DNA of 64,000 nt from Epidermidibacterium keratini (GTDB taxonomy: Bacteria; Actinomycetota; Actinomycetes; Mycobacteriales; Antricoccaceae): NCBI RefSeq assembly GCF_009834025.1, contig NZ_CP047156.1, positions 930,001 to 994,000 of the forward strand, read 5' to 3'. The notes below the pieces were generated by a model that searched no databases, was not told the DNA's origin, and saw nothing but the letters and a program-made list of their open reading frames with translations. Positions 43,093 to 57,596 of this stretch are shown here, piece by piece. The number at the start of each line of letters is the position of its first letter. Within the stretch, counting starts at the first letter, position 1. The position numbers and the translations under genes were made by a program.

Positions 43093-43965
43093 ATGAAGCC
43101 CGCATCGTTCGAGTATCACCGCGTGTTTACCGCCGATGAGGCCGTCACGCTGCTGGCCGAGCTCGACGACGAGGCGAAGGTGCTTGCCGGCGGTCAAAGC
43201 CTCGCGCCCATGATGAACTTCCGGTTGGCCCGTCCGAGCGCCCTCGTCGACATCAACCCGGTAGGTGAGCTCGACTATGTGCGCCGCGACGGCGACGTAC
43301 TGAAGATCGGCGCGCTCACCCGGCACCGCACCATCGAGCTGCTTGATGATCCCTCGATCATCGATGGGTACGGCGTACTTCCTAGTGCTGCTAGGCATAT
43401 CGGCCACTTCCCCATCCGCACCCGGGGCACTGTCGGCGGCAGCATCGCGCACTCCGACCCATCGGCCGAATGGTGCCTACTGGCACTGCTGCTCGATGCC
43501 CAGATCGTCACGCTCGGACCGCAGGGACGCCGCGAGACGGCGGCGCGTGACTGGTTCACCGGCTTCTTGACAACAAGCATCGAGCCGGGCGAGATCGTCG
43601 TCGAGACCGCATTTCCGCGTCCACGGGCACGTGCCGCACTCACCGAGTATGCGCAGCGCAAAGGTGACTTCGCGATCTGCTCCGCCGCAGTCGCCTACGA
43701 CGACGCAGACGGCGTGATGAGCGATCCGGCGATCGTCCTAGGCGGCGTCGCCTCCGAACCGTTCCGCAGCTCCGAGCTTGACGAGATCGCCTCCGGCCTT
43801 CCTGCCGAGCCGTCGAGCTTCACCCGGATCGCCCGCGCCGCAGCCGATCTCATTGACCCGCCGTCTGACCTGCATGGCGACTCGGCGTACCGAAAAGATC
43901 TGGCACAGACCATGATCGAGCGGGCCTTCGCTGAAGCCGCCGACGGACCGGTGAGCGCTCGATGA
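43093..43965 (+). CDS. Molybdenum hydroxylase FAD-binding (medium) subunit
   Basis: A 290-residue subunit of the CoxM/XdhB type. FAD motifs are LAGGQSLAPMMNFRLARPSA (residues about 33-52) and TRGTVGGSIAHSDPSAEW (about 111-128), followed by the CO-dehydrogenase flavoprotein C-terminal domain. It passes electrons from the 2Fe-2S subunit to an acceptor. GAGGGG precedes the ATG, and the gene overlaps the large subunit by 4 nt. First gene of a four-gene operon. Confidence 0.92.
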   Translation: MKPASFEYHRVFTADEAVTLLAELDDEAKVLAGGQSLAPMMNFRLARPSALVDINPVGELDYVRRDGDVLKIGALTRHRTIELLDDPSIIDGYGVLPSAARHIGHFPIRTRGTVGGSIAHSDPSAEWCLLALLLDAQIVTLGPQGRRETAARDWFTGFLTTSIEPGEIVVETAFPRPRARAALTEYAQRKGDFAICSAAVAYDDADGVMSDPAIVLGGVASEPFRSSELDEIASGLPAEPSSFTRIARAAADLIDPPSDLHGDSAYRKDLAQTMIERAFAEAADGPVSAR

Positions 43966-46316
43966 CCGACCCCGCGCGCCCGTTTACCTGGGTCGGTCAA
44001 CGCGTGCCGCGCCACGAGGACCCACGCTTCTTGCGCGGCGCTGGGGCCTATACCGACGACATCGCGGTCGTCGGGGCGCTGCATGCGTCGTTCGTGCGCT
44101 CCCCCGTCGCCGCCGGCCGAATCGTCTCGGTTGATCTCGAAGAGGCTCGCAACATCCCCGGCGTGGTTGACATTCTCACCGCTGATGACCTCGGCCGACC
44201 GGCTCTTCGCGCCGTCCTAGAGCGCGATGGGTTCGTCGCCACAGACATGCCGTTACTTGCCGCCGACCGGGTGCGCTACTGCGGCGAGCCGGTTGCCGTC
44301 GTCATCGCTGAAGACGCCTACTCAGCAGAGGACGGCGCCGAGTCCGTCATCGTGGAGATTGCCGACGAAGCGGCGCCGGTCGATATCGACTCCGCCGCCG
44401 GCAACCCGCTGCATGAGGAGGCGCCCGACGGGGTGCTTGTCGACCTGCAGATGTTCGACGACCCGTCGATCGAGCAGGTGCTCGACGAGTCGCACGTGGT
44501 CCTCGACGAGCAGTTCACCTCGGCACGAGTCAACGCAGCGCCCATGGAGTGCCGCGCCGTCGTCGCCGAGCTCGACCGTCGTGCTGGACAGCTGGTGGTA
44601 CACACCTCCACGCAGGTGCCCCACCAGGTGCGGTCGGGAATCGCCCAGGCGCTTGGCATGGCCGAGGGCGAGATCCGGGTCATCGCACCGGATGTCGGTG
44701 GCGGTTTCGGGCTCAAGTGCGTGGTCGGGCGCGAGGAGGTCGTCGTAGCGGCGGCCGCCCGCAGGCTCGGTCGGCCGGTGCGATGGAGCGAAGACCGACG
44801 CGAAAGTCTGATGGCCTCGTTCACCGGTCGTGAGCAGCGATACCACGTGCGCGCCGGCTTCACCGAGGACGGCGTACTCACCGGAATCGACGCCGACATC
44901 CAGGTGGACGTCGGGGCGTACTCGGCCTATCCGTTTACCTGCGGGGTCGAGCCGCTGATGGCGTGCACCGAGCTGCCCGGCGTCTACCGGGTCGGTGCCT
45001 ACTCCGCTCGTGGGCGCGGGTACGCGACGGCAAAATGCCCCACCGCCCCATACCGCGGAGTCTCGCGACCGCAGATCGTGATGGTCATGGAGCGGCTGAT
45101 GGACAAGGCTGCGACCCTTCTTGGCATCGACCCGATAGAGATACGGCGTCGCAACCTCATCACTGACTTTCCTTACACCGGGCCGAATCTGATCACCTAC
45201 GAGCCTGGCTCGTATCTGCAGTCGCTAGATGACTGCGAGCGGGCGATTGACGCGGCCGGCTGGCGTGAGATCACCGCCAACGCGCAGGAACCGTACCGAT
45301 ACGGCATCGGGATCTGTTGCTTTTCGGAGCGTTCGGCGTACGGGACACCGACGATGGGCGCCCGGCGCATGGGCATGACGCCCGGCTACGACGTGGCACA
45401 CGTCCGGATGGACCCGAGCGGTCATGTCACGGTCACCACTGGCACCTGCGGGCATGGGCAGGGCCACGAGACGACGTTCGCCCAGATCGTCGCCGACCAA
45501 CTCGGTATCGAGCCGGCTCAGGTGCGGCTACGCCAGGGCGACACCGATCTTTCTAGCTATGGCTGGGGAACTTTCGCCAGCCGCAGTTTGGTGATTGGCG
45601 GCACGGCGATCCGCGCGGCCTCTGTGCGGCTGGCCGAGACGCTAAAGCAGGTTGCCTCCGATGTGCTTGAAGCCGACCCGGCGGACGTCCGGCTACGCGA
45701 CGGCGCTGCGTGGGTTGACCGGGTCAGCGTTCCGGTAAGCGACCTCGCGCAACGGGTTCACTTCCGCGCCCATGAGCATCCCGACCTGCCCGAGCAGCTG
45801 CTCGAGGCTCGCGGCGAGTCCGATCCCGATGGCTGCTTCTCAAACGCGACGCATGCCGCCCTCGTGCGGATCGACACGCAGACCGGCGATGCCCACGTGG
45901 CGGACTACATCGTCGTCGAGGACTGCGGCGTGGTGGTCAACCCGATGATCGTCGACGGACAGGTTCGCGGCGGAGTCGCCCAAGGTATCGCTGCCGGGCT
46001 TCTCGAACGCCTGGAGTACGCCGAGGACGGGCAGCCGATGTCTGCCACCTTCATGGACTATCTCGTGCCAACGGCGAGCGAGATCCCGAATGTGGCGATC
46101 CACCACCTCGAGACCCGAAACGAACAAAACCCCTTAGGAGCCAAGGGAATGGGCGAAGGCGGCACCATCGGCGCACCCACCGCCGTACTCGGTGCAGTCA
46201 ACGACGCGCTGCGCGACACCGGCACGCAGTTCGACCACATTCCCGTGTTGCCAGCGCAGATTCGCGCCGCGTTCCGCGGCGTCGCGAGTCCCGCAGGGCG
46301 TAAGGAGATCGCGTGA
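43962..46316 (+). CDS. Molybdopterin-binding (large) subunit of molybdenum hydroxylase, copy 1
   Basis: A 784-residue xanthine-oxidase-family large subunit. N-terminal VGQRVPRHEDPRFLRGAGAY and the VRYCGEPVAVVIAEDAYSAE block begin the ald_xan_dh domain. The molybdenum-site loop reads APYRGVSRPQIVMVMERLMD, unlike form I CO dehydrogenases (AYxCSFR) and form II enzymes (AYRGAGR). The catalytic Glu is in AKGMGEGGTIGAPTAVLGAV near the C-terminus. It is a hydroxylase of unknown substrate. Shares only the general pattern with copy 2 (46795). Confidence 0.9.
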   Translation: MTDPARPFTWVGQRVPRHEDPRFLRGAGAYTDDIAVVGALHASFVRSPVAAGRIVSVDLEEARNIPGVVDILTADDLGRPALRAVLERDGFVATDMPLLAADRVRYCGEPVAVVIAEDAYSAEDGAESVIVEIADEAAPVDIDSAAGNPLHEEAPDGVLVDLQMFDDPSIEQVLDESHVVLDEQFTSARVNAAPMECRAVVAELDRRAGQLVVHTSTQVPHQVRSGIAQALGMAEGEIRVIAPDVGGGFGLKCVVGREEVVVAAAARRLGRPVRWSEDRRESLMASFTGREQRYHVRAGFTEDGVLTGIDADIQVDVGAYSAYPFTCGVEPLMACTELPGVYRVGAYSARGRGYATAKCPTAPYRGVSRPQIVMVMERLMDKAATLLGIDPIEIRRRNLITDFPYTGPNLITYEPGSYLQSLDDCERAIDAAGWREITANAQEPYRYGIGICCFSERSAYGTPTMGARRMGMTPGYDVAHVRMDPSGHVTVTTGTCGHGQGHETTFAQIVADQLGIEPAQVRLRQGDTDLSSYGWGTFASRSLVIGGTAIRAASVRLAETLKQVASDVLEADPADVRLRDGAAWVDRVSVPVSDLAQRVHFRAHEHPDLPEQLLEARGESDPDGCFSNATHAALVRIDTQTGDAHVADYIVVEDCGVVVNPMIVDGQVRGGVAQGIAAGLLERLEYAEDGQPMSATFMDYLVPTASEIPNVAIHHLETRNEQNPLGAKGMGEGGTIGAPTAVLGAVNDALRDTGTQFDHIPVLPAQIRAAFRGVASPAGRKEIA

Positions 46317-46792
46317 AAGACCTGCATCTGATCACAGTCATCGTCAACGGTCGCGAACACGAGCTGGTCATCGAGTCGCGGCGGACCCTTGCCGACATGC
46401 TCCGCCAGGACCTCGGGCTCACCGGCACGCACCTCGGCTGCGAACATGGCATCTGCGGCGCCTGCACCGTCTTGCTCGACGACGAGCCGGTGCGTGCCTG
46501 TCTCATCTTCGGGGTGCAGGCCGACGGCCGGTCGGTTCGTACCGTTGAGGATCTCGCCGACGGCGACTCGCTTTCTGAGTTGCAGCAGGCATTCTCGAAA
46601 CATCACGGACTCCAGTGCGGCTTCTGCACCCCTGGGTTCTTGATGCTGGCCGAGTCCTATCTCGCGAGCCGTCCTGAGCCGGACAAGGACGAGATCCGCG
46701 ACGTCGTCGCCTCCAACCTGTGTCGCTGCACCGGCTACCAGGGGATCGTCGAGGCGATCCACGAGGTCGCCGCGGCACAGCAGGGCGGCTGA
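46313..46792 (+). CDS. Molybdenum hydroxylase 2Fe-2S (small) subunit
   Basis: A 159-residue CoxS/XdhA-type subunit. The plant-ferredoxin-type cluster is bound in GCEHGICGACTVLLDD (residues about 43-58) and the second cluster in CGFCTPGFLM and NLCRCTGYQGIVEAI (about 101-146). It carries electrons between the molybdenum centre and FAD. It lies between the two large-subunit genes, overlapping the first by 4 nt, and could serve both. Confidence 0.93.
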   Translation: MKDLHLITVIVNGREHELVIESRRTLADMLRQDLGLTGTHLGCEHGICGACTVLLDDEPVRACLIFGVQADGRSVRTVEDLADGDSLSELQQAFSKHHGLQCGFCTPGFLMLAESYLASRPEPDKDEIRDVVASNLCRCTGYQGIVEAIHEVAAAQQGG

Positions 46793-46794
46793 GC

Positions 46795-49146
46795 ATGACT
46801 GCCACGAGTACCGACCGATCGACCCTAGGCTCGTACGTCGGAAGTCGCGTGGGACGCAAGGAAGATCAGCGACTGTTGCGCGGCGAGGGCCGCTTCGGAC
46901 ACGACGTGCAGCGGCCGCGGATGCTGCACGCTCGTGTCGTTCGCTCCAACGTCGCGCACGGCCGCATCGTCGACATCGACGTCGGCGAGGCCAAGGCGCT
47001 CCCCGGTGTCATCGACGTCGTCACCGGTCATGACTTGCCGCGACCGGTGACGATCCCGGTGCGACTTGCGGTGCAAGACGTCGATCTCACCGACTATCTC
47101 CAACCGATCCTGCCTACCGACGAGGTGCGATACGTCGGCGAGCCGATCGCCGTCGTAGTCGCCGAAGACGCCTATGTCGCAGAGGATGCCGCCGAGCTCG
47201 TCATCGTTGAAACCGAGGAGCTGCCCGTCGTCCTCGACACGACCAGCGGTGATGAGTCCGTCACGATCGCGGCTGATTTCGGCATGGGGTACGGCGATAT
47301 CGCTGAGGCATTTTCCCAGGCCGACCATGTCACCGAGCTCGTCTTCGACATCGGCAGACACAGCGCGGTGCCGATGGAGCCACGCACCCTCGTCGTGGAT
47401 CCGAGCGGTGGCGAGCTAGAGATCTTCGGGACGACGAAGGTGCCGGTCTTCAACCGCCAGGTGCTCGCGACACTGCTCGGCATCGACGAGCAGCAGATCC
47501 GCATGCATGCGGTCGATGCGGGAGGCGGCTTCGGCGTGCGGGGCGAGTTCTACCCCGAGGACTTCCTCATCCCGTGGCTCGCGCAGCGGACCAGCCATCC
47601 GGTCAGCTGGGCCGAGGACCGACAGGAACACATGGTCGCGGTCAACCACAGCCGCCAGCAGCAGCACCGACTCTCGCTGGCACTCAAGAACAATGGCGAG
47701 ATCCTCGGCTTGCGCGCCGATGTGATTCACGACAACGGCGCCTATGCCCGCACCCACGGCATCATCGTTCCCGAGCTGACGATCGCGATGCTCCCTGGGC
47801 CATACCGGGTCCCGGCGTACGACGCGCGGGTGCGGGTCGCTCTGTCTCACAAGACCCCGTGCGGCACCTACCGGGCACCCGGCCGTTTTGAGGGAACGAC
47901 CAGCCGCGAGCAGCTGCTCGACAAGGCGGCGGACGAGCTCGGCATCGATCGAGTCGAGCTGCGGCGTACCAACCTGCTCGTGCCCACCGAGCTCCCCCAT
48001 GCCCGCGAGCTGGGCACGCTAGGCACCGACATGCTGATCGACAAAGGCGACTTTCCCGGCTTGTTTGCCACGGCGCTTGATCGCGCGGCCGAGCTGGGCT
48101 GGGTCGATACGGTTGCGGAGATGCGATCAACGGGCCGGGTAGGCGGCATCGGGATCGCGATGTTCATGGAGAAGAGTGGCCTCGGACCGTACGACACCGC
48201 CGATGCCGAGATCACCAGTACCGGCCGGCTGAGGATCTATTCCGGCGGCACGTCTCTCGGGCAAGGGATCGAGACGGCATTGGCTCAGATCGCCGCCGAC
48301 GTGATTCCCGTGGGCCTCGATCGGGTTGACGTCATTAACGGCGACACCGCCGAACAGCCCTTCGGCACGGGATCCTGGGCGAGCCGCTCCACCGTCGTTG
48401 CCGGCAATGCGGTGCGTGGCGCGTGTCAGCAGGTCGCGGACCGGATGATTGGGCTGGGCGCGCGCGTGTTGGAGGTGGCGCCGGATGACCTCGTGCTCGA
48501 CGAGTTCGGCGTACGACACCGGCAGGAAGCGGACAAAGCCTGCAGCTATTGCGATCTCTCCCGATTTGCCGGTCCCGGATCGCCGCACCTACGAGCCGAC
48601 GAGCCCGCCGGTTTGCGACGACGTACTCGCTTCACCGTCGACCACATGACGTATCCGTACGGCGCGCACGTGTGTCTGGTCGAGATCGACCCTGGGACCG
48701 GCGGGGTTCAGGTGCACGGATATCTCGTGGCCTATGAAGTCGGGGTCGCGGTCAACCCGACGATGATCGAGGGTCAGCTGTACGGCGGGATCGCCCAAGG
48801 CATCGGCGGAGCGCTGCTTGAGGAGTTTCGCTACGACGAGGCAGGACAACCGCAAAGCGCCACGTTCATGGACTACCTCATGCCAACGGCGGCCGAGGTT
48901 CCGCCGATGGAGCTGGCGGTGCTCTCCAACCACCCGGCGTCGACCAATCCCCTCGGGGTTCGTGGTGCCGGCGAAGGCGGGTTGACCGCGGCGGGCGGGT
49001 GCCTGGCCAGCGCGGTGCGCGACGCGCTCGCCCATGTCGCACACGCTGAGCGAGATATCGTGCGGCTGCCGATTACGCCCGCCGAGCTACGGCGACGGCT
49101 GAGATCGGCGTACTCGCCCGACGCGAAACCGGTTGCTGACATGTAG
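46795..49146 (+). CDS. Molybdopterin-binding (large) subunit of molybdenum hydroxylase, copy 2
   Basis: A 783-residue xanthine-oxidase-family large subunit of a different sequence from copy 1. It starts SYVGSRVGRKEDQRLLRGEG. The molybdenum-site loop is CGTYRAPGRFEGTTSREQLL, again not the form I or II CO-dehydrogenase motif. The catalytic Glu is in VRGAGEGGLTAAGGCLASAV. The presence of two large subunits with one FAD and one 2Fe-2S gene is unusual. ATG 46795 follows the small-subunit stop by 2 bp. The upstream frame to 46720 is antisense to nothing and overlaps that gene, so I reject it. Confidence 0.9.
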   Translation: MTATSTDRSTLGSYVGSRVGRKEDQRLLRGEGRFGHDVQRPRMLHARVVRSNVAHGRIVDIDVGEAKALPGVIDVVTGHDLPRPVTIPVRLAVQDVDLTDYLQPILPTDEVRYVGEPIAVVVAEDAYVAEDAAELVIVETEELPVVLDTTSGDESVTIAADFGMGYGDIAEAFSQADHVTELVFDIGRHSAVPMEPRTLVVDPSGGELEIFGTTKVPVFNRQVLATLLGIDEQQIRMHAVDAGGGFGVRGEFYPEDFLIPWLAQRTSHPVSWAEDRQEHMVAVNHSRQQQHRLSLALKNNGEILGLRADVIHDNGAYARTHGIIVPELTIAMLPGPYRVPAYDARVRVALSHKTPCGTYRAPGRFEGTTSREQLLDKAADELGIDRVELRRTNLLVPTELPHARELGTLGTDMLIDKGDFPGLFATALDRAAELGWVDTVAEMRSTGRVGGIGIAMFMEKSGLGPYDTADAEITSTGRLRIYSGGTSLGQGIETALAQIAADVIPVGLDRVDVINGDTAEQPFGTGSWASRSTVVAGNAVRGACQQVADRMIGLGARVLEVAPDDLVLDEFGVRHRQEADKACSYCDLSRFAGPGSPHLRADEPAGLRRRTRFTVDHMTYPYGAHVCLVEIDPGTGGVQVHGYLVAYEVGVAVNPTMIEGQLYGGIAQGIGGALLEEFRYDEAGQPQSATFMDYLMPTAAEVPPMELAVLSNHPASTNPLGVRGAGEGGLTAAGGCLASAVRDALAHVAHAERDIVRLPITPAELRRRLRSAYSPDAKPVADM

Positions 49147-49166
49147 CTTTGGGTATTCTTTCTCGT

Positions 49167-49176
49167 TGGTATATCA
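49167..49176. promoter_or_regulatory. GntR-type operator before gntR
   Basis: TGGTATATCA, in the context TTGGTATATCAA, lies 31 bp before the chosen gntR start. It differs from the other sites by one base (C to T in the second arm). It suggests autoregulation. Confidence 0.7.
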
Positions 49177-49207
49177 AAATCGACGCGAGATGGGCTGCCG
49201 GTACTCG

Positions 49208-49816
49208 ATGAGCTACACCTCCAAGGCGGACATGGTGACCGCCAAGCTGCGCGAGATGATCGTCGCCGGTGATCTCAAGCCCGGTGCCGCGCTCCGGCAG
49301 CGCGACCTCGCTGGCGAGTTCGGCGTAAGTCAGACGCCAGTCCGCGAAGGCTTGCGCCGCTTGGAGGCCGAAGGACTCGTCTCCAACGACCCGCACAAAG
49401 GCTCCATCGTGGCCGAAGCCCGTGCCGGGCGGTGGAGCGAAAACTTTGCAATCCGTGCGGCACTTGAGTCGCTGGCCGCCGAGCTCGCGTGCGACACGAT
49501 CACCGACGATCAGGTCCGCGAGCTGCAAGAGCTCGACAACCAGATGCGGGCGATAGGTGTCATCAACGACGAGTACCGGGCCTTGAACCAGCGCTTCCAC
49601 ATGCAGATCTGCACGATCGCTGACAGTCCACTGCTGATGTCATTTATCAAGCTCCTGTGGCGCGCGCTCGGCGACGGACCGCATGTCGTGCGAACCCACT
49701 CTGAGTCGGCACGCCAACATCGGCAGATCATCGCGGCATTGCGCGCCGGCGACAAGGAGAAGGTCACTGCGGTGATTCGCCGGCACATCCTCGGCGCCAC
49801 CATCGAACAGGAATAG
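49208..49816 (+). CDS. GntR/FCD-family transcriptional regulator
   Basis: A 202-residue regulator of the FadR (FCD) subfamily. Winged HTH residues 8-65 include LRQRDLAGEFGVSQTPVREG and LRRLEAEGLVSNDPHKGSIV. The FCD effector domain (residues about 75-200) has the metal-ligand His set in NQRFHMQICT, ARQHRQIIAALR and RRHILGA. An acid or CoA ester is the usual ligand class. ATG 49208 was chosen to fit the family; the frame is open to 49133. An operator-like palindrome lies upstream, and five more copies lie before genes of this block. Confidence 0.9.
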   Translation: MSYTSKADMVTAKLREMIVAGDLKPGAALRQRDLAGEFGVSQTPVREGLRRLEAEGLVSNDPHKGSIVAEARAGRWSENFAIRAALESLAAELACDTITDDQVRELQELDNQMRAIGVINDEYRALNQRFHMQICTIADSPLLMSFIKLLWRALGDGPHVVRTHSESARQHRQIIAALRAGDKEKVTAVIRRHILGATIEQE

Positions 49817-49891
49817 CGTTCTCCTATCAGCGCAGCGGTGGTGTGGGTCACGACCAGTTGACCGTCGCGCGGCAGCGATCGTAGATTATTC

Positions 49892-50015
49892 AAAGGTCAT
49901 GAGTTCCAGCATCAAGCCCCGGCTTGCTGGACGGCAACCCTCCGACGCGGTGGGGTGCTCCGGGTGAAGACCTGGCGGTTTTGTCCGAAAGCCGCAAGCG
50001 CGCGCCCGGAAGGGC
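49892..50015 (+). ncRNA. SAM riboswitch (SAM-I/SAM-IV superfamily)
   Basis: The core AGGTCATGAGTTCCAGC at 49894 onward, CAAGCCCCGGCTTGCTGG, CGGCAACCCTCC and GGTGGGGTGCTCCGGGTGAAGACCT has the shared SAM-I/SAM-IV core sequence. The P1 stem is AGGTC (49894-49898) with GACCT (49969-49973). Beyond P1 two further hairpins (GCGG/CCGC from 49976, and GCCCGGAAGGGC) fit the SAM-IV-type 3' extension seen in actinobacteria. It controls the downstream sulfur operon. Class I versus IV cannot be settled by eye. Confidence 0.85.
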
Positions 50016-50032
50016 CCAACAAAGAAGGCAAC

Positions 50033-50152
50033 ATGAGCAGCGATCTTTCGCTTCATCAGCTCAGTGACACCGAACTGTCCCATGCCTTGACCTGCCGTCG
50101 GCATGTCGATCTGCTGCGCGTCTCCAGCGCACTGTGTCTGGCTGCGCTCTAA
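50033..50152 (+). CDS. Small leader peptide for sulfur attenuation
   Basis: A 39-residue peptide, MSSDLSLHQLSDTELSHALT then CRRHVDLLRVSSALCLAAL. The RRHVDLLRVSSALC part is the conserved signature of actinobacterial leader peptides found before sulfur and amino-acid genes, in which ribosome stalling at Cys codons is thought to control the genes after it. AGAAGG lies upstream of the ATG. Here it follows a SAM riboswitch and precedes a hairpin at 50180. Confidence 0.78.
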   Translation: MSSDLSLHQLSDTELSHALTCRRHVDLLRVSSALCLAAL

Positions 50153-50179
50153 CCGCACCGCGCCCCCAAGCTTCACTCA

Positions 50180-50225
50180 CCACCCACGTCCGCTGTCTGC
50201 GGAAGCGGTGGTAGTTCGCGAACTT
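50180..50225 (+). promoter_or_regulatory. Attenuator-like hairpin plus 12-bp palindrome
   Basis: ACCACC (50180-50185) pairs with GGTGGT (50208-50213), and inside it TCCGC (50190-50194) pairs with GCGGA (50200-50204). Directly after it AGTTCGCGAACT (50214-50225) is a perfect 12-bp palindrome. The region lies between the leader peptide stop and the permease SD, where an attenuator or SD-sequestering fold is expected. No T-tract. Confidence 0.5.
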
Positions 50226-50247
50226 TGCTGACACACAAGGAAACTTC

Positions 50248-51294
50248 ATGCCTTCCGTGCCTACATCGTTGGCATCTCCAGCCTCCGGTCCCGGTACCGC
50301 CGAAGCCCCACCTCCGCCTCACGGCTCAACCCCGCACCTCGAGTCCGCGCAGCGCGACGACGACTCCAACCTCTCCGTCGTCCCGGTTCGTCACCCGTGG
50401 CGCTGGGCCGGTGTGGCTGTGGTCGTCGTACTACTCGCCCAGTTCGTGCACGGCCTCATCACCAACCCCGGCTGGGACTGGCCGACCTTCGGCGCCTGGT
50501 TCGCTTCCAAGTCCATCGTCACCGCGCTCGGGACCACCATCCAGCTGACCGCGTTCGGCACCGTTCTCGGTTTTGCACTCGGCGTGGTGCTCGCAGCAAT
50601 GCGCATGTCGCGCAGCCCGTTCCTGCAGATCGTGTCGTGGGGCTACGTTTGGGCCTTCCGGTCGATCCCACTCATCGTGCAGCTGCTGTTCTGGTTCAAC
50701 ATCGCCTACCTGTATCAGACGTTGCAGTTCGGCGTCCCATTCGGACCAGGCTTCTTCAGCGTCGAGACGAATGACGTCCTCGGTCCGCTCGGCGCCGCCG
50801 TGCTCGGACTTGCCCTCCATCAAGCTGCGTACGCCGCCGAGATCATCCGCGGCGGGATCCTCTCGGTCGACCATGGTCAGCTCGAGGCTGCGGCCGCCCT
50901 CGGAATCCCACGGCTGCGGCAGTTTCGACGAATCGTGCTTCCCCAGGCGATGCGCTCGATCCTGCCTAACGCGGCCAACGAGGTCATCTCGCTGTTCAAG
51001 GGCACGTCGATCGTCTCGGTCATGGCAATCCCTGAGCTCTTCTACCAGGCGCAGGTGATCTATGGCCGCAACGGTCGCGTAGTTCCGTTGCTGATGGTCG
51101 CGACGGTCTGGTACATCGTCCTCACGAGCGTCCTGTCCATCGTGCAGTACTACCTCGAGCGGCACTACGCCAAAGGCGCGAACCGTACGCCGCCGCCGAC
51201 TCCGTGGCAGCGCGCCCGGGACGGCATGGGACGAGTACGCCGTGCTGCGGCACCAGATGCCTCAACCCAGCTGCGTCAGGGGGTCAGCCAGTGA
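50248..51294 (+). CDS. Amino-acid ABC transporter permease (His/Glu/cystine type)
   Basis: A 348-residue permease of the polar-amino-acid HisM/GlnP family. Residues 1-50 are a Pro/Ser-rich extension, then five to six TM segments with the family motif LGTTIQLTAFGTVLGFALGV and the EAA loop GQLEAAAALGIPRLRQFRRI, followed by LPQAMRSILPNAANEVISLF. AAGG lies upstream of the ATG. It overlaps the ATPase by 4 nt. The gene neighbours favour a cystine- or S-alkyl-cysteine-type substrate. Confidence 0.9.
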   Translation: MPSVPTSLASPASGPGTAEAPPPPHGSTPHLESAQRDDDSNLSVVPVRHPWRWAGVAVVVVLLAQFVHGLITNPGWDWPTFGAWFASKSIVTALGTTIQLTAFGTVLGFALGVVLAAMRMSRSPFLQIVSWGYVWAFRSIPLIVQLLFWFNIAYLYQTLQFGVPFGPGFFSVETNDVLGPLGAAVLGLALHQAAYAAEIIRGGILSVDHGQLEAAAALGIPRLRQFRRIVLPQAMRSILPNAANEVISLFKGTSIVSVMAIPELFYQAQVIYGRNGRVVPLLMVATVWYIVLTSVLSIVQYYLERHYAKGANRTPPPTPWQRARDGMGRVRRAAAPDASTQLRQGVSQ

Positions 51295-52085
51295 GCATCA
51301 CGACCGAAGACCCCGCCGCGCATCCGCCGCTGATGATCGACGCGCGAGGCGTGCACAAGTCCTACGGCGACCACGACGTCCTACGCGGCATCGACCTCCA
51401 GATCAAGCCTGGATCGGTCACGGCCATCCTCGGACCTTCCGGATCAGGAAAGTCGACCCTGCTGCGGGTCATCAACCACCTTGAAAAACTCGACCGCGGC
51501 ACCATCCGCGTCGACGGTGACCTGATCGGCTACCGCCGCAAGGGTCAGCGTCTGCACGAGCTCTCCGAACGGGAGATCCTGCACCAGCGCTCGAAGATCG
51601 GCTTCGTCTTTCAGAACTTCAACCTCTTCGGGCACCTGACGGTTCTCGACAACATCATCGAGGCACCGATATCGGCACAACGCCGACGCCGTAAGGAAGT
51701 CGAGCCTCTCGCCCGAGACCTGCTGAAGCGAGTGGGCGTGGCCGACAAGGCGAATGAATACCCGCGCCGCCTGTCCGGCGGCCAGCAGCAGCGCGTCGCG
51801 ATTGCTCGCGCACTCGCGATCAAGCCGCAGCTGATCCTCTTCGACGAGCCCACCAGCGCACTGGACCCTGAGCTCGTCGGTGAGGTCCTCGATGTCATCG
51901 CCGAGCTCAGCACCTCCGGCGTCACCCTCGTCATCGTGACCCACGAGATCGGCTTCGCCCGGCGGATCTCCGACACGGTCATCTTCATGGATCAAGGCCA
52001 GATCATCGAGGGCGGCCCGCCGGACCAGGTCATCGACAACCCCGAGCATCCCCGGACCCGCTCCTTCATCTCAAAGGTTCTTTAA
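51291..52085 (+). CDS. Amino-acid ABC transporter ATPase
   Basis: A 264-residue ATPase of the GlnQ/HisP/TcyC type. Walker A LGPSGSGKSTLLRVINHLEK, the Q-loop FVFQNFNLFGHLTVLDNIIE, signature RLSGGQQQRVAIARALAI and Walker B LILFDEPTSALDPELVGEVL are intact. GTG 51291 overlaps the permease stop (GTGA). The longer frame to 51204 is inside the permease gene and rejected. Confidence 0.93.
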   Translation: MSITTEDPAAHPPLMIDARGVHKSYGDHDVLRGIDLQIKPGSVTAILGPSGSGKSTLLRVINHLEKLDRGTIRVDGDLIGYRRKGQRLHELSEREILHQRSKIGFVFQNFNLFGHLTVLDNIIEAPISAQRRRRKEVEPLARDLLKRVGVADKANEYPRRLSGGQQQRVAIARALAIKPQLILFDEPTSALDPELVGEVLDVIAELSTSGVTLVIVTHEIGFARRISDTVIFMDQGQIIEGGPPDQVIDNPEHPRTRSFISKVL

Positions 52086-52088
52086 CAC

Positions 52089-53144
52089 ATGCCAGTCATC
52101 ACGCACGCTTCGCTTATATATCCAGAGATCCACGAAAACCATCGGTCGACAGCCGCTCGGCGTACGCCGCTGCTCGCGCTATTGACCATGGCCACGCTCG
52201 TCTTTGCCAGCGGCTGCGCCGACCCGACAAACGAGTCGTCGCAGAAGGGCGCGCAGCCGGCGGCCGACGGTGTCGCCGAGGTCAACGTGCCGACGACCTT
52301 CAACACCTCACCCGAGCAGGACCGGATCAGTGCCAAGCCCGACCCCGACGCCGTCGCGCTGCTGCCCGATGACCTCAAGGCCTCAGGCACGCTCGTCGTC
52401 GGTGGCGGCTTCGCCGGTGGCGGCCTGCCACCGCTGGGATTCTTAGCCGACGACAACGCGACACCAATCGGCGTTGAGGTCGACTTCGCCTACCTCTTCG
52501 CCGACAAGCTCGGACTAGAGCCCCAGGTCGACGTGACGAGCTGGGAAAACATCTTCCTCGGCTTGGATTCCGGCAAGTACGACGTCGCGATCTCCAATGT
52601 CGGAGTTTCCGAGGAGCGCAAGGAGAAGTACGACTTCGCGACCTACCGACTGGGCCTGCACGCCTTCGAGGCGAAGAAGGGCTCCGGGCTGAAGGTCGAG
52701 GGCCCAGCAGACGTCGCGGGCAAACGGGTGGCGGTCAGCTCCGGAACACTGCAGGAGGGCATCCTGCTCGCCTGGGACGCCGAAAACAAGGCTGCCGGCC
52801 GCGAACCGATCGACATCGCCTACTACCAGTCCCCCACCGAGTACTACCTCGCGTTGCAAAGCGGTCAGCTTGATCTCTACCTGGGGCCCAACCCGACGGC
52901 GACGTACCACGTCGTCACGGCCGGGCAGACCGAGATCGTCGGAACGGTCTCGTCGTCGTACCCGATCGACGGCAAGGTCGCGGTGATGACGCAGAAGGGC
53001 GACGGCACGGTCGAAGCCCTCTCCGCGGCGATTGACAGCGCCATCGCCGACGGGACCTACCAGGACGTGCTCGACCGTTGGGGCCTCGGCGCGGAGGCAG
53101 TCACCGAGTCCGAGATCAACCCGCCCGGCCTGCCCAAGAAGTAA
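52089..53144 (+). CDS. Amino-acid ABC transporter substrate-binding lipoprotein
   Basis: A 351-residue type-3 solute-binding lipoprotein. The signal peptide (residues about 20-40) ends in the lipobox ASGC (FASGC). The mature domain has LVVGGGFAGGGLPPLGFLAD, PIGVEVDFAYLFADKLGLEP and VAISNVGVSEERKEKYDFAT, the SBP_bac_3 fold of amino-acid importers. An in-frame ATG at residue 34 or so (MATLVFASGC) is too short for a signal, so the ATG at 52089 is preferred. It lies 3 bp after the ATPase. Confidence 0.9.
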   Translation: MPVITHASLIYPEIHENHRSTAARRTPLLALLTMATLVFASGCADPTNESSQKGAQPAADGVAEVNVPTTFNTSPEQDRISAKPDPDAVALLPDDLKASGTLVVGGGFAGGGLPPLGFLADDNATPIGVEVDFAYLFADKLGLEPQVDVTSWENIFLGLDSGKYDVAISNVGVSEERKEKYDFATYRLGLHAFEAKKGSGLKVEGPADVAGKRVAVSSGTLQEGILLAWDAENKAAGREPIDIAYYQSPTEYYLALQSGQLDLYLGPNPTATYHVVTAGQTEIVGTVSSSYPIDGKVAVMTQKGDGTVEALSAAIDSAIADGTYQDVLDRWGLGAEAVTESEINPPGLPKK

Positions 53145-53173
53145 CAGATGGCCGACCACACAAGGAGACCTCG

Positions 53174-54304
53174 ATGAGCACGTTCTACACGGCACTGTCG
53201 CTCACCGCGACCGGCACTCACCCCGGCTCATGGCGCGATCGGCAGGCACGACCGCATGACGCGTTCGATGCCGCCAGCTGGGTCGCCCATGCGCGATCGG
53301 CAGAGCAGGCCGGAATTGACCTGCTCACGTTGCCGGACGCATTCACCCACGAACCGGAGTACGGCGCGCTGCACGCCCGCCTTGACGCGGTCGGACTCGC
53401 GGCGAGGATCGCACCTCAGACGAGCACGATCGGTCTCGTACCGACGGTCACCACGACCCACACCGAGCCGTTCCACCTTCAGGCCGCGATCGCCACCGTC
53501 GACTGGGTGTCACGCGGGCGAGCCGGTTGGCAGCTGGAGGTCTCCAACTCAGCCGCCGATGCCGAGATCGTCGGCCGGCGCGCCCCTGCACCGCCGTCGG
53601 AGCTATGGCGCGAGGCCGGCGAGGTCGCCGACGTCGGTCGTCGACTGTGGGACTCGTGGGAGGACGACGCGGAGATACGCGATATCGAGACCGGCCGGTT
53701 CGTTGACCGCGATAAGCTGCACTACGTCGACTACAAGGGCAGCACCTTCTCCGTCAAGGGTCCCTCGATCGTGCCGCGTCCGCCGCAGGGCCACCCGGTG
53801 ACGGTCATAGCGATCCGTGACCGACACACGTTGGCTGTCGCAGCCGAGTCGGCAGATGTGGTGCTCCTGCGGGCCTCGGATGTTGAGACTCTCCGCGGTG
53901 ACGTCGCCGATTTCGAGCACGCCCTCGATGCGGCCGGTCGCCGCCGCGAGGACGTGCGGTTGTTTGCCGACTGGAATGTCGTCCTCGGCGACAACAACGA
54001 GCAGGCCCAGCAAAGATGGCAAGCGCTGCAAGCGAGTACGCCGACCTCGACGTACTGGCACGTGCTCGCCGTCGATGAGCTTGCGCATCGGATCGCCGCC
54101 CTCCCGGGAGCTGGGCTCGACGGTATCCACCTACGCCCGGCGGTGATCGCGACCGACCTCGATCTGATCACCGGCCTGCTGCTCGACAGGCTGCGCCACA
54201 CCGGCGTACTCGACCGCCTCGCCGCGCAGGCCACGCCGCTGACGTTGCGCGAGCGGCTCGGGCTGGCGCATCCGGCCAACCAGTACGCGGCGGTACAGGG
54301 CTAA
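53174..54304 (+). CDS. Luciferase-like (LLM) flavin-dependent monooxygenase
   Basis: A 376-residue bacterial luciferase-like TIM-barrel oxygenase. It has DLLTLPDAFTHEPEY and TIGLVPTVTTTHTEPFHLQA, and the FMN-binding VSRGRAGWQLEVS block at residues about 112-124. These enzymes need FMNH2 and O2, often to split C-S or C-N bonds. GGAG is upstream of ATG 53174, while the open frame to 53078 lies inside the previous gene. The counterpart in the Bacillus operon is YtmO. Confidence 0.87.
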   Translation: MSTFYTALSLTATGTHPGSWRDRQARPHDAFDAASWVAHARSAEQAGIDLLTLPDAFTHEPEYGALHARLDAVGLAARIAPQTSTIGLVPTVTTTHTEPFHLQAAIATVDWVSRGRAGWQLEVSNSAADAEIVGRRAPAPPSELWREAGEVADVGRRLWDSWEDDAEIRDIETGRFVDRDKLHYVDYKGSTFSVKGPSIVPRPPQGHPVTVIAIRDRHTLAVAAESADVVLLRASDVETLRGDVADFEHALDAAGRRREDVRLFADWNVVLGDNNEQAQQRWQALQASTPTSTYWHVLAVDELAHRIAALPGAGLDGIHLRPAVIATDLDLITGLLLDRLRHTGVLDRLAAQATPLTLRERLGLAHPANQYAAVQG

Positions 54305-54336: not shown

Positions 54337-55698
54337 ATGGCATCCCGACGTAAGCAGCTTCATCTCGCGGCACACTTCCCAGGCGTCAATAACACGACGG
54401 TGTGGACAGACCCGCAGTCCCGCTCACAGATCGACTTCAGCTCCTTCGAGGCATTGGCCCGCTCAGCCGAAGCCGCGACCTTCGATTTCTTCTTCCTCGC
54501 CGAAGGTCTGCGGCTGCGTGAGTCACACGGCAAGATCCACGATCTCGACGTGGTGGGCCGTCCCGAGTCGATCACGGTGCTCAACGCACTCGCGGCTGTG
54601 ACCGACCGCCTCGGGCTGGCTGCGACGGTGAACGCGACCTTCAACGAGCCATACGAGATCGCCCGCCGGTTTGCCACCCTCGACCACCTGTCCGGTGGGC
54701 GGGCCGCGTGGAACGTCGTCACGACCTCGGATGCGTTCACTGGCGAGAACTTCCGTCGTGGCGGGTACCTCGACCACGCAGACCGCTACACGCGCGCCCA
54801 GGAGTTCGTCGACGCCACCCGGACGCTATGGGACAGCTGGGACAGCGACGCTCTGGTGCTCGACCAGCAGACGGGGCGTGTCGCAGAGCCCGGTGCCGGG
54901 CGCTTCGGTCATCGGGGCGCCCAATTTGAGATCTCCGGGCAGTTCGGCGTCCCTCGCTCGCCGCAGGGCCATCCGGTGATCATCCAGGCTGGCGACTCGT
55001 CGGCGGGGCGTGACTTTGCGGCCCGCGACGCCGACGTCATCTTCACCAGGCACGGCACATTGCAAGCAGGCCAGGAGTTCTACCACGACGTCAAACGCCG
55101 CCTATCTGACTTCGGCCGCCAACGAGATGACCTCAAGATCATGCCCGGGGTCACGGTCGTGGTGGCCGATACCGACGCGGAGGCCGAAGAGAAGGCCGCT
55201 CACATTCGCCGGCAGCAGGTCTCCGGCGCGACGGCACTGCATCTGGCCGAGCTGCTCTGGGGTATCGATCTGTCGGACCGCGATCCCGACGGACCGCTGC
55301 CGGCCGAGGACCCGGTCGTGGGATCGGCGGTCGTGCAAGGCCGGGTCCAGCACAGCAAGGATCCCCTCGCGACAGCAAAGAAGTGGCGCGAGGCAGCGGA
55401 AGCCAACGGGTGGTCGCTGCGCGAGACAGTGATCGCGCAGCAGAATCGCCAGTCGTTCATCGGCTCGCCGCAGACTGTCGCGACGGCGCTGGATGAGTAC
55501 GTGCAGGCGGACGCCGCAGATGGCTACATTCTCGTGCCACACCTAACGCCCGGCGGCCTCGATGACGTCTTCGAGCGGGTTGTGCCATTGCTGCGCGAAC
55601 GCGGAGTGTTTCGCACCGAGTACGACGGAGCCACGCTGCGTGAGCACCTTGGCCTGCCGACTCCGGCTCCTGGCCGGGTGCGCACGGGGGCGGCGTGA
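54337..55698 (+). CDS. NtaA/DmoA-family FMN-dependent monooxygenase
   Basis: A 453-residue flavin monooxygenase of the NtaA/SnaA/DszA/DmoA group. It starts KQLHLAAHFPGVNNTTVWTD, has FDFFFLAEGLRLRESHGKIH, then RFATLDHLSGGRAAWNVVTT (residues about 109-128) and GHPVIIQAGDSSAGRDFAAR. The group oxidises N- and S-containing compounds, among them S-alkyl-cysteine derivatives (Bacillus CmoJ/YtnJ). AAGGAGAG lies before ATG 54337. It overlaps the following gene by 4 nt. Confidence 0.9.
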   Translation: MASRRKQLHLAAHFPGVNNTTVWTDPQSRSQIDFSSFEALARSAEAATFDFFFLAEGLRLRESHGKIHDLDVVGRPESITVLNALAAVTDRLGLAATVNATFNEPYEIARRFATLDHLSGGRAAWNVVTTSDAFTGENFRRGGYLDHADRYTRAQEFVDATRTLWDSWDSDALVLDQQTGRVAEPGAGRFGHRGAQFEISGQFGVPRSPQGHPVIIQAGDSSAGRDFAARDADVIFTRHGTLQAGQEFYHDVKRRLSDFGRQRDDLKIMPGVTVVVADTDAEAEEKAAHIRRQQVSGATALHLAELLWGIDLSDRDPDGPLPAEDPVVGSAVVQGRVQHSKDPLATAKKWREAAEANGWSLRETVIAQQNRQSFIGSPQTVATALDEYVQADAADGYILVPHLTPGGLDDVFERVVPLLRERGVFRTEYDGATLREHLGLPTPAPGRVRTGAA

Positions 55699-57596
55699 GC
55701 CACCGCCCAGTCTCCGTCGCGTTTGTCGGGGCTGGACCACGCACCGTCGTACTCCTGGAGAGGATGGCCGCGAGCTTCGACGAGCTCGTGGCTTCTGGCA
55801 CGCCGGTCGAGATTCAGCTGATCGATCCCTACCCGATCGGCGCGGGGCGAATTTGGCGTGACGACCAGTCACCGCTGCTGTGGATGAACTCAGTTGCTCG
55901 GGACGTCACGGTCTTTACCGACGAGTCGGTGCAGTGCGAGGGTCCTATCCGCCCTGGGCCTTCGCTCGCCGACTGGCTTAGCTCCGAGGGCGTCGACGCG
56001 TTGCGGGCAGCCGGACTTTCCCACCATATCGGCGCTTTTGGCCCCGATGACTTTGTGCCGCGCGAAGTGCAATCGGTCTATCTGCAATGGGCCTTTCGTC
56101 GCGCGCTCGCCACCCTCCCGGCAAATGTGTCGGTCTGGGAGCACCGGCAGCAGGCGATTGCGGTGTACGACGAACCCGACGGGCAACAGAGTGTGGAGCT
56201 CATCGACGGACACATGGTCCGCGCCGATGTGACTGTGCTCGCGCAGGGATACCTCGACCGGCACCTGGATGCCCAACAGCAACGTCTTGCAAGCGACGCC
56301 GCCGCTGCCGGGCTGCGGTACATACCGGCCGGATATACCGCAGATCTGGACTTTTCGGCTATCCGGCCGGGTGAGGACGTCGTTGTCCGCGGCTTCGGCC
56401 TGGCGTTCATCGACCTGATGGCACTGCTGTGTGAGGGGCGAGGCGGGCGCTTCATCGAGCAGACAGACGGAACTCTGCGATACGACCCGTCCGGCCTTGA
56501 GCCCGTGCTGCACGTCGGCTCGCGCCGCGGCGTGCCGTATCACGCCAAGCTCGGCTACGACATCAGTGCCGCCGTACCGCGCCCGCCACAGTATTTGAGC
56601 ACCGCCGCGATTGACGCGATGCCGGCGCACATCGACTTCGAGCGTGACCTGCGTCCGCTCATCACCACCGAGCTCGCCGCTGCTCACTACGAGCGTCTGG
56701 CCACCGCACATCCCGAGCGGATCCATGCGACCTGGCCGGAGATTCGCGCCGTACTCAACCTTGGCGGCGCCGATACCGAGGCTTTTGCCGACTATATCTA
56801 CAGTGTTGTGCCCGACGAAGGCGATCGGTTTGAGCTGGGCCAGATTGACCGACCCCTGCGCGGCCTGCATTTCGAGTCCGCCGAAGACGTTGACGCGGCG
56901 GTCGCCCACTACGTCGATGCCGATCTGCGCCGCCGGGCCGATCCGAACTACTCGGCAGATCGCGCCGTCTTCGATGCCCTTCTCGGGGTGTACGGCGTAC
57001 TCGCCTACGCGGTGACCACCGGCCGACTGAGCGGCATCGACCGCATCACCCGCGTCGAAGGCAGCTTTCACAGCCTCTTCTCCTTCCTTGCCAGCGGCCC
57101 ACCGCCGCGCCGGCTCAGGGAGCTGCTCGCGCTGCATCGGGCCGGCCTCGTGCGCTTCGGTGGCCCGGACTGGCAGGTGCACATCGCAGACAACCAGTTC
57201 ATCGCCCAGAGCGCGGCCGTTGACGCCTCAGCCACCAAGGCGAAGGTGCTGATCGACGCGTGGCTGCCGCGGCCGGACGTCGCGGCGACCACCGATCCGC
57301 TCATCCGCGGGCTCCTGCTAGCCGGCGAGCTCGCCGTCGAGGATCTCGGCGGCGACCTGCCCGGTGGACAGCTGCTCGCTGACGCGCAGTCCCGCGCTAT
57401 CCGTGCGGACCGATCGGTGCACCCGCGGCGTTTTCTGCTCGGCCCGTCGGTCTCCGGATCGGCCGGCTCGTCCGGCTTTGCACGGCCCCATTTCAACGCT
57501 CCTGGGCTACGGCAGAATGACCGTGTGGCCAGGCAGATCCTCGCGGTGCTGGGCTCGCGCGTGACCGAAGATGCCCTGGCCTCCGAGCGAGTCTGA
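55695..57596 (+). CDS. Large FAD/NAD(P)-binding protein
   Basis: A 633-residue flavoprotein. The N-terminal VSVAFVGAGPRTVVLLERMA is a Rossmann FAD/NAD loop, followed by IDPYPIGAGRIWRDDQSPLL and VVRGFGLAFIDLMALLCEGR (residues about 228-247), matching FAD_NAD_bind proteins of the HpxO/lysine-monooxygenase-like superfamily. The substrate is unknown. GTG start overlaps the monooxygenase stop (GTGA), so it is the last gene of the sulfur operon. It may reoxidise a carrier or oxidise the acyl or alkyl part of the substrate, but this is inference. Confidence 0.82.
   Translation: MSHRPVSVAFVGAGPRTVVLLERMAASFDELVASGTPVEIQLIDPYPIGAGRIWRDDQSPLLWMNSVARDVTVFTDESVQCEGPIRPGPSLADWLSSEGVDALRAAGLSHHIGAFGPDDFVPREVQSVYLQWAFRRALATLPANVSVWEHRQQAIAVYDEPDGQQSVELIDGHMVRADVTVLAQGYLDRHLDAQQQRLASDAAAAGLRYIPAGYTADLDFSAIRPGEDVVVRGFGLAFIDLMALLCEGRGGRFIEQTDGTLRYDPSGLEPVLHVGSRRGVPYHAKLGYDISAAVPRPPQYLSTAAIDAMPAHIDFERDLRPLITTELAAAHYERLATAHPERIHATWPEIRAVLNLGGADTEAFADYIYSVVPDEGDRFELGQIDRPLRGLHFESAEDVDAAVAHYVDADLRRRADPNYSADRAVFDALLGVYGVLAYAVTTGRLSGIDRITRVEGSFHSLFSFLASGPPPRRLRELLALHRAGLVRFGGPDWQVHIADNQFIAQSAAVDASATKAKVLIDAWLPRPDVAATTDPLIRGLLLAGELAVEDLGGDLPGGQLLADAQSRAIRADRSVHPRRFLLGPSVSGSAGSSGFARPHFNAPGLRQNDRVARQILAVLGSRVTEDALASERV

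Follow-up and report, generated by a model that had tools for sequence, protein, structure and literature searches.

The leader RNA described here shares features with several known systems. SAM-IV riboswitches (RF00634) resemble it in the complete aptamer, the actinobacterial host and the sulfur-related genes downstream, but in the present case the first open reading frame (ORF) behind the aptamer encodes a Cys-type leader peptide rather than a structural gene. Cys-rich upstream ORFs (uORFs) were described in front of nirA/Msmeg_4527 and cysA2/Msmeg_5788 (Shell 2015), and PMC13236596, citing Canestrari 2020, reports Cys-responsive attenuation in M. smegmatis. These mycobacterial Cys-responsive leaders (Ms4527A, Ms5788A; NF042934, NF042936, NF042933) share with the present one the sequence motif, a Cys near the stop codon and sulfur genes downstream. 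They differ in that the present leader has one closing, UGU-encoded Cys and no Cys run and, whereas the published leaders are leaderless, is a leadered ORF located behind a SAM aptamer.

Combinations of a riboswitch with a uORF are known from M. tuberculosis. The M-box riboswitch controls a uORF with Rho-dependent termination (PMC12810186) and has the same order of riboswitch, uORF and structural genes, with Rho proposed as output, but it senses Mg2+ and its uORF is no known amino-acid sensor, resulting in one input instead of two. In case of the B12 riboswitches with uORFs at metE and ppe2 (PMC11260477), uORF translation within the riboswitch leader likewise alters gene expression, but the uORF lies inside the aptamer or overlaps the gene and carries no amino-acid signature. 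Serial coupling of a SAM aptamer to a sensor of amino-acid starvation, in front of sulfur amino acid genes, is represented by the SAM-I/T-box(Met) gates listed in a review on tandem riboswitches; in the accessible part of that review, however, an RNA that binds uncharged tRNA serves as second sensor, the cases number only nine, and none is seen with leader peptides or SAM-IV. No description of SAM-IV or SAM-I paired with a Cys leader was found in the open-access literature, in a search falling short of some key papers.

Most known tandem RNA logic gates join two aptamers, or one aptamer and a T-box. Here, the role of second sensor would fall to a ribosome translating a peptide ORF, and this kind of combination is common. 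Riboswitches, Cys leaders and riboswitch–uORF–Rho leaders are each already known; the pairing of a SAM aptamer with a Cys leader is well supported.

Aptamer, leader peptide and operon in the window

Across the window (the whole stretch of 64 kb analyzed; features in Table 1), the SAM-IV aptamer at 49895–50006 (+) is the only Rfam match; it covers the entire RF00634 model and, at 104.8 bits, scores far above the gathering score of 38. A preceding sequence-only reading had recognized a riboswitch, left its class undecided (SAM-I/IV-type) and proposed a covariance-model search, which assigns the element to SAM-IV. Upstream of the aptamer, one promoter-like pair of the sigma-70 type is found as compared to 0.1 in shuffled sequences, and a transcript from this pair would begin at about the first bases of the aptamer.

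The leader ORF, preceded by AAGAAGG, begins 26 nt 3' of the aptamer and encodes a peptide of 39 amino acids (MSSDLSLHQLSDTELSHALTCRRHVDLLRVSSALCLAAL), bearing out the 39-codon ORF within 60 bp of the aptamer noted in the earlier reading. It is located on the same strand as a sulfur/transport-type operon, with its stop codon 95 nt before the permease gene. The peptide passes the cut-off (27 bits) of the NCBIfam model NF042934, 'putative leader peptide', and is the sole match above this cut-off in the genome (4.02 Mb). Membership in the Ms4527A family (NF042936) was rejected, since the score of 22 bits stays below the curated cut-off of 45 and the single closing Cys is not part of a Cys run; the leader is thus similar to this family, not a member. 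Relatives of the window leader also match Ms5788A. Across the leaders, about 14 residues up to the closing Cys are conserved, while N-terminus and tail are variable.

The series of riboswitch and leader in front of a monooxygenase operon, as read from the sequence before, is confirmed, the operon encoding ABC transport proteins and FMN monooxygenases. Aptamer class and neighbouring genes fit sulfur scavenging as the predicted role of this operon. The GntR/FCD-family regulator gene upstream is probably not part of the leader. Just upstream of it, genes for a molybdopterin hydroxylase (xanthine/aldehyde oxidase type) and a 2Fe-2S subunit are located at 43962–49146, unrelated to the leader.

Table 1. 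Features of the leader region and adjacent genes (positions in the window)
Feature	Position	Strand	Basis and remarks
GntR/FCD-family regulator gene, upstream neighbour	49133..49816	+	PF00392/PF07729; TTG-start ORF
Sigma-70-like promoter TTGACC-18-TAGATT	49858..49887	+	Consensus match only
SAM-IV riboswitch aptamer	49895..50006	+	RF00634, 104.8 bits, E 3e-18, model positions 1–116 of 116
Short hairpin GCCC-GGAA-GGGC, touching aptamer 3' end	50004..50015	+	Folding vs shuffles across SAM-IV loci
Shine-Dalgarno (SD) GAAGG of leader ORF	50024..50028	+	Sequence
Leader peptide ORF (39 codons), RRHVDLLRVSSALC type	50033..50152	+	ATG 50033, TAA 50152; NF042934, 29.3 bits
UGU codon of the motif's closing Cys	50135..50137	+	UGU in 41/42 and 56/57 leaders vs 14–16 % in genes
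C-rich, G-poor stretch directly after leader stop, candidate rut site for Rho	50153..50192	+	Composition only
Nested hairpin (inner stem 50189–50203)	50175..50215	+	Forms in MFE, z about -0.9; role unproven
12-bp palindrome AGTTCGCGAACT	50213..50224	+	Sequence; role unproven
Amino-acid/cystine-type ABC transporter permease, first structural gene	50248..51294	+	PF00528; among NCBIfam models closest to cystine permease, score short of that cut-off; SD AAGGA 50237–50241
ABC transporter ATPase	51204..52085	+	PF00005; among NCBIfam models closest to cystine ATPase TcyN, score short of that cut-off; coordinates of the longest ORF, GTG 51291 being the likely start
Extracellular solute-binding protein family 3	52089..53144	+	PF00497
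FMN-dependent luciferase-like monooxygenase	53078..54304	+	PF00296; TIGR03860 at 219 bits, short of the cut-off; coordinates of the longest ORF, the true start lying later
FMN-dependent monooxygenase, NtaA/DmoA family	54337..55698	+	TIGR03860, 426 bits, above cut-off of 279.7
FAD/NAD(P)-binding protein, NAD_binding_9	55695..57596	+	PF13454

Recurrence of the pair and exchange of the aptamer class

The survey set comprised 31 genomes from the window's own and neighbouring families, in which Rfam yielded 117 SAM-IV places and NF042934 yielded 83 leader places. In these genomes, 27 NF042934 leaders follow a SAM-IV aptamer on the same strand at a distance of 52–295 nt, whereas random placement predicts 0.01 such tandems, or 0.2 if both elements are limited to 5 % of the genome. 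A relaxed search for the RRHVDLxRVSSALC type motif retrieves a leader in 42 of the 117 SAM-IV loci; a stricter pattern retrieves it in 37 of 116 downstream regions, with no match on the reverse strand and none in the 300 nt upstream. The serial arrangement of aptamer and leader is not due to chance, and a fortuitous juxtaposition or annotation artefact, for which nothing but the short length of the ORF speaks, has a negligible probability in view of the number of tandems and the empty reverse strand. The first gene after the 27 tandems is usually an orthologue of the window permease (46–85 % identity) or of its first monooxygenase; the arrangement noticed in the sequence-only reading thus recurs in many genomes and before orthologous operons. 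Among the surveyed SAM-IV loci, no leader was found where the aptamer directly precedes a cysteine-desulfurase-like gene.

Orthologous loci were located by scanning named genomes with the window permease and subsequently analyzed with Rfam, since a sequence pattern for SAM-IV recovers only 92 of the 117 aptamers. SAM-IV and leader are found at the corresponding position in Humibacillus, Terrabacter, a Micrococcales MAG and Nakamurella, while relatives from Nocardia and Rhodococcus carry SAM-I (RF00162) in place of SAM-IV. In nine of the latter loci (eight from Nocardia and one from Rhodococcoides; L256, L268, L272, L275, L288, L289, L293, L298, L319), the same type of leader, with closing UGU, lies behind SAM-I. 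The orthologous operon of Kribbella has the leader without an aptamer, and in some Nocardia orthologues SAM-I is located directly before the gene without a leader, indicating that neither input is obligatory. Together with the exchange of SAM-IV for SAM-I, these lone modules indicate that each module can be lost and the aptamer class exchanged, with the order aptamer, leader and operon being kept. The exchange at orthologous operons represents a natural experiment, suggesting that the pairing, and not one particular RNA, is retained.

The occurrence of either element without the other at orthologous operons would also be compatible with only one of them being active, e.g., with the riboswitch controlling the operon and the leader being a side effect of translation close to the aptamer, or vice versa. 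This is very unlikely, considering that aptamer and leader of the window both score above their model cut-offs and that the pairing is found far more often than expected by chance and persists when the aptamer class is exchanged.

Among the 74 other SAM-IV loci, 12 contain a short ORF with a Cys pair or run at its end (poly-Cys leader), as compared to 0.3 in shuffled sequences. Such poly-Cys uORFs (e.g., MARSPMRCCCQ) are located after SAM-IV and before O-acetylhomoserine sulfhydrylase-like genes in relatives from the Mycobacteriaceae and Nakamurella (L024, L027, L043, L033, L047). Behind the second SAM-IV aptamer of the window's own genome (L184, G000:C1:2576881-2583296), a short ORF containing three Cys codons and ending RCCCPLTR likewise precedes a lipoprotein-like gene, and an equivalent arrangement is present in a relative of the family (L202). 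In some genomes (e.g., G032, G005, G085, G121, G086; L113, L115, L111, L108 and similar loci), several units of SAM-IV and leader, some of them divergent, lie within a few kilobases, which looks like regulon duplication.

The closing cysteine codon

The Cys closing the conserved motif is encoded by UGU in 41 of 42 SAM-IV-linked leaders (19 of 20 when one leader per genome is counted) and in 9 of 9 SAM-I-linked leaders. In a sample drawn from the whole class Actinomycetes, the same codon is found in 56 of 57 leaders; this sample includes leaders lacking a riboswitch and overlaps in part with the 42 SAM-IV-linked ones. By contrast, UGU accounts for only 14–16 % of the Cys codons in long genes at the same loci, and the remaining Cys codons inside the leaders are mostly UGC. 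Ribosome stalling had been assigned to UGC codons in the sequence-only reading; the conserved codon is UGU instead, and the UGC of the window leader, at Cys-21, is not conserved. Since the codons next to the closing UGU vary, the constraint rests on the codon itself. However, the Asp of the HVD motif also prefers GAU (28/45 vs 18 %), so that the UGU bias may have a nucleotide-level cause.

A single tRNA-Cys reads both UGU and UGC, the former by wobble, and the use of a slow codon at the site of control is known from the leu leader of E. coli. The near-invariance of a wobble-read codon therefore supports cysteine as the sensed amino acid; as already suggested in the earlier reading, it is the likely second signal. 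We know of no description of this family-wide UGU rule for NF042934-type leaders (L071–L097, L215–L244; window 50135–50137). It renders the tuning of leader peptides to tRNA charging, an old question, testable by a single synonymous base change.

Alternatively, the peptide may be a true arrest peptide, with the nascent RRHVDLxRVSSAL chain in the exit tunnel stopping the ribosome at the UGU or stop codon when a small sulfur metabolite is sensed, and not through tRNA charging alone. About 14 conserved residues ending at the Cys exceed the needs of a simple attenuator, and usually a single Cys closes the motif. Nevertheless, we consider such an arrest rather improbable, because members of the family grade into poly-Cys leaders (AVDLCRVAGCCCCCCSC), fitting tRNA-Cys sensing, and because the UGU bias points towards the codon rather than the residue alone.

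Proposed two-input gate and output step

The pair of aptamer and leader looks like a real two-signal sulfur switch and not a coincidence. Building on what is directly established, namely the elements and their recurrence, the bias in codon use and the C-rich tract, we regard it as quite probable that the leader RNA is a two-input OFF/OFF sulfur gate, responding to SAM via the riboswitch and to cysteine via ribosome stalling at UGU, with Rho as the presumed output. The following steps are envisaged: (i) the SAM-IV aptamer, as first element of the transcript, would bind SAM and thereby lower expression, most likely through interference with translation of the leader ORF starting 26 nt later; (ii) at low SAM, the leader would be translated and the ribosome would reach the UGU codon after the conserved RRHVDLLRVSSAL stretch; (iii) if Cys-tRNA is scarce, the ribosome would stall there, as suggested by the kinship with leaders reported to be Cys-responsive and by the UGU bias; (iv) a ribosome held at the end of the leader would allow RNA polymerase to reach the operon, whereas with a ribosome leaving fast or never arriving, the C-rich RNA after the stop codon would invite Rho termination. 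ABC uptake system and FMN monooxygenases would consequently be formed only when SAM and cysteine are both low. More tentatively, one may speculate on a hierarchical sulfur NOR gate widespread in Actinomycetes, in which initiation at the leader is gated by a SAM aptamer whose class (SAM-IV or SAM-I) can be exchanged, while the nascent RRHVDLxRVSSAL chain and the invariant wobble-read UGU make the ribosome unusually sensitive to Cys-tRNA shortage. If so, one transcript would report SAM and then cysteine status in sequence.

The region does not match a classical attenuator with intrinsic terminator, since no hairpin with U-tract was found after the leader in the window or after any of 42 comparable leaders. 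The nested hairpin and the 12-bp palindrome pointed out in the sequence-only reading are both present as written; the attenuator role attached to them, however, is not supported, because their region folds no better than shuffled sequences (z -0.94 and -0.84), lacks a U-tract and does not generally sequester the SD of the gene.

The output step is probably Rho-dependent, as suggested by the very C-rich stretch following the leader stop. In the window, C exceeds G by 17 over these 40 nt, a value reached by only 0.03 % of the plus-strand 40-nt windows, and by composition the stretch at 50153–50192 is rut-like in the sense of tnaC-like Rho-dependent leader attenuation. C exceeds G in all 23 comparable post-leader regions, the mean excess being 0.225 vs 0.10 in other same-strand gaps (p 4e-4), with a small control set (22 regions) and with C>G being frequent upstream of genes generally. 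The tract suits Rho, which has been proposed for mycobacterial cys leaders by Seliverstov et al. (PMC1262725) and described for riboswitch-uORF leaders of M. tuberculosis. Against this explanation, UGU sits 12 nt before the leader stop in the window, so that part of the C-rich tract would stay uncovered by a stalled ribosome.

Rho would not be needed in case of translational attenuation, with the RNA at the leader end pairing with the ribosome-binding site of the gene unless prevented by a ribosome stalled at the Cys codon. This mechanism is reported, as cited in PMC13236596, for the nearest characterised leaders, i.e., the poly-Cys leaders of M. smegmatis. In the window, predicted accessibility of the gene SD is indeed lower with the leader than without (0.40 vs 0.58; shuffled leader 0.52, z -2.4). 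However, 23 comparable leaders display no overall effect on the gene SD (p 0.10 vs no leader; p 0.31 vs shuffled leader), and leader–gene gaps vary from 64 to 265 nt. Thus, the window alone leans towards sequestration of the gene SD in these folding predictions, the tests overall being negative, and translational attenuation appears unlikely as compared to the Rho-dependent gate.

With respect to the SAM input, folding provided no support for sequestration of the leader SD by the aptamer–leader linker or the 3' side of the aptamer. Windows downstream of the region from -6 to +26 around the aptamer end are not more stable than shuffled sequences at SAM-IV loci with or without leader. The region itself folds more stably than shuffled sequences, both in the 42 leader loci (mean z -0.84, p 5e-4) and in the 74 other SAM-IV loci (mean z -1.05, p 3e-11), pointing towards the hairpin at the aptamer 3' end as a candidate expression-platform element common to loci with and without leader. 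Many SAM-IV aptamers (L098–L214), whether or not a leader is present, have at their 3' end a GC-rich hairpin whose sequence varies.
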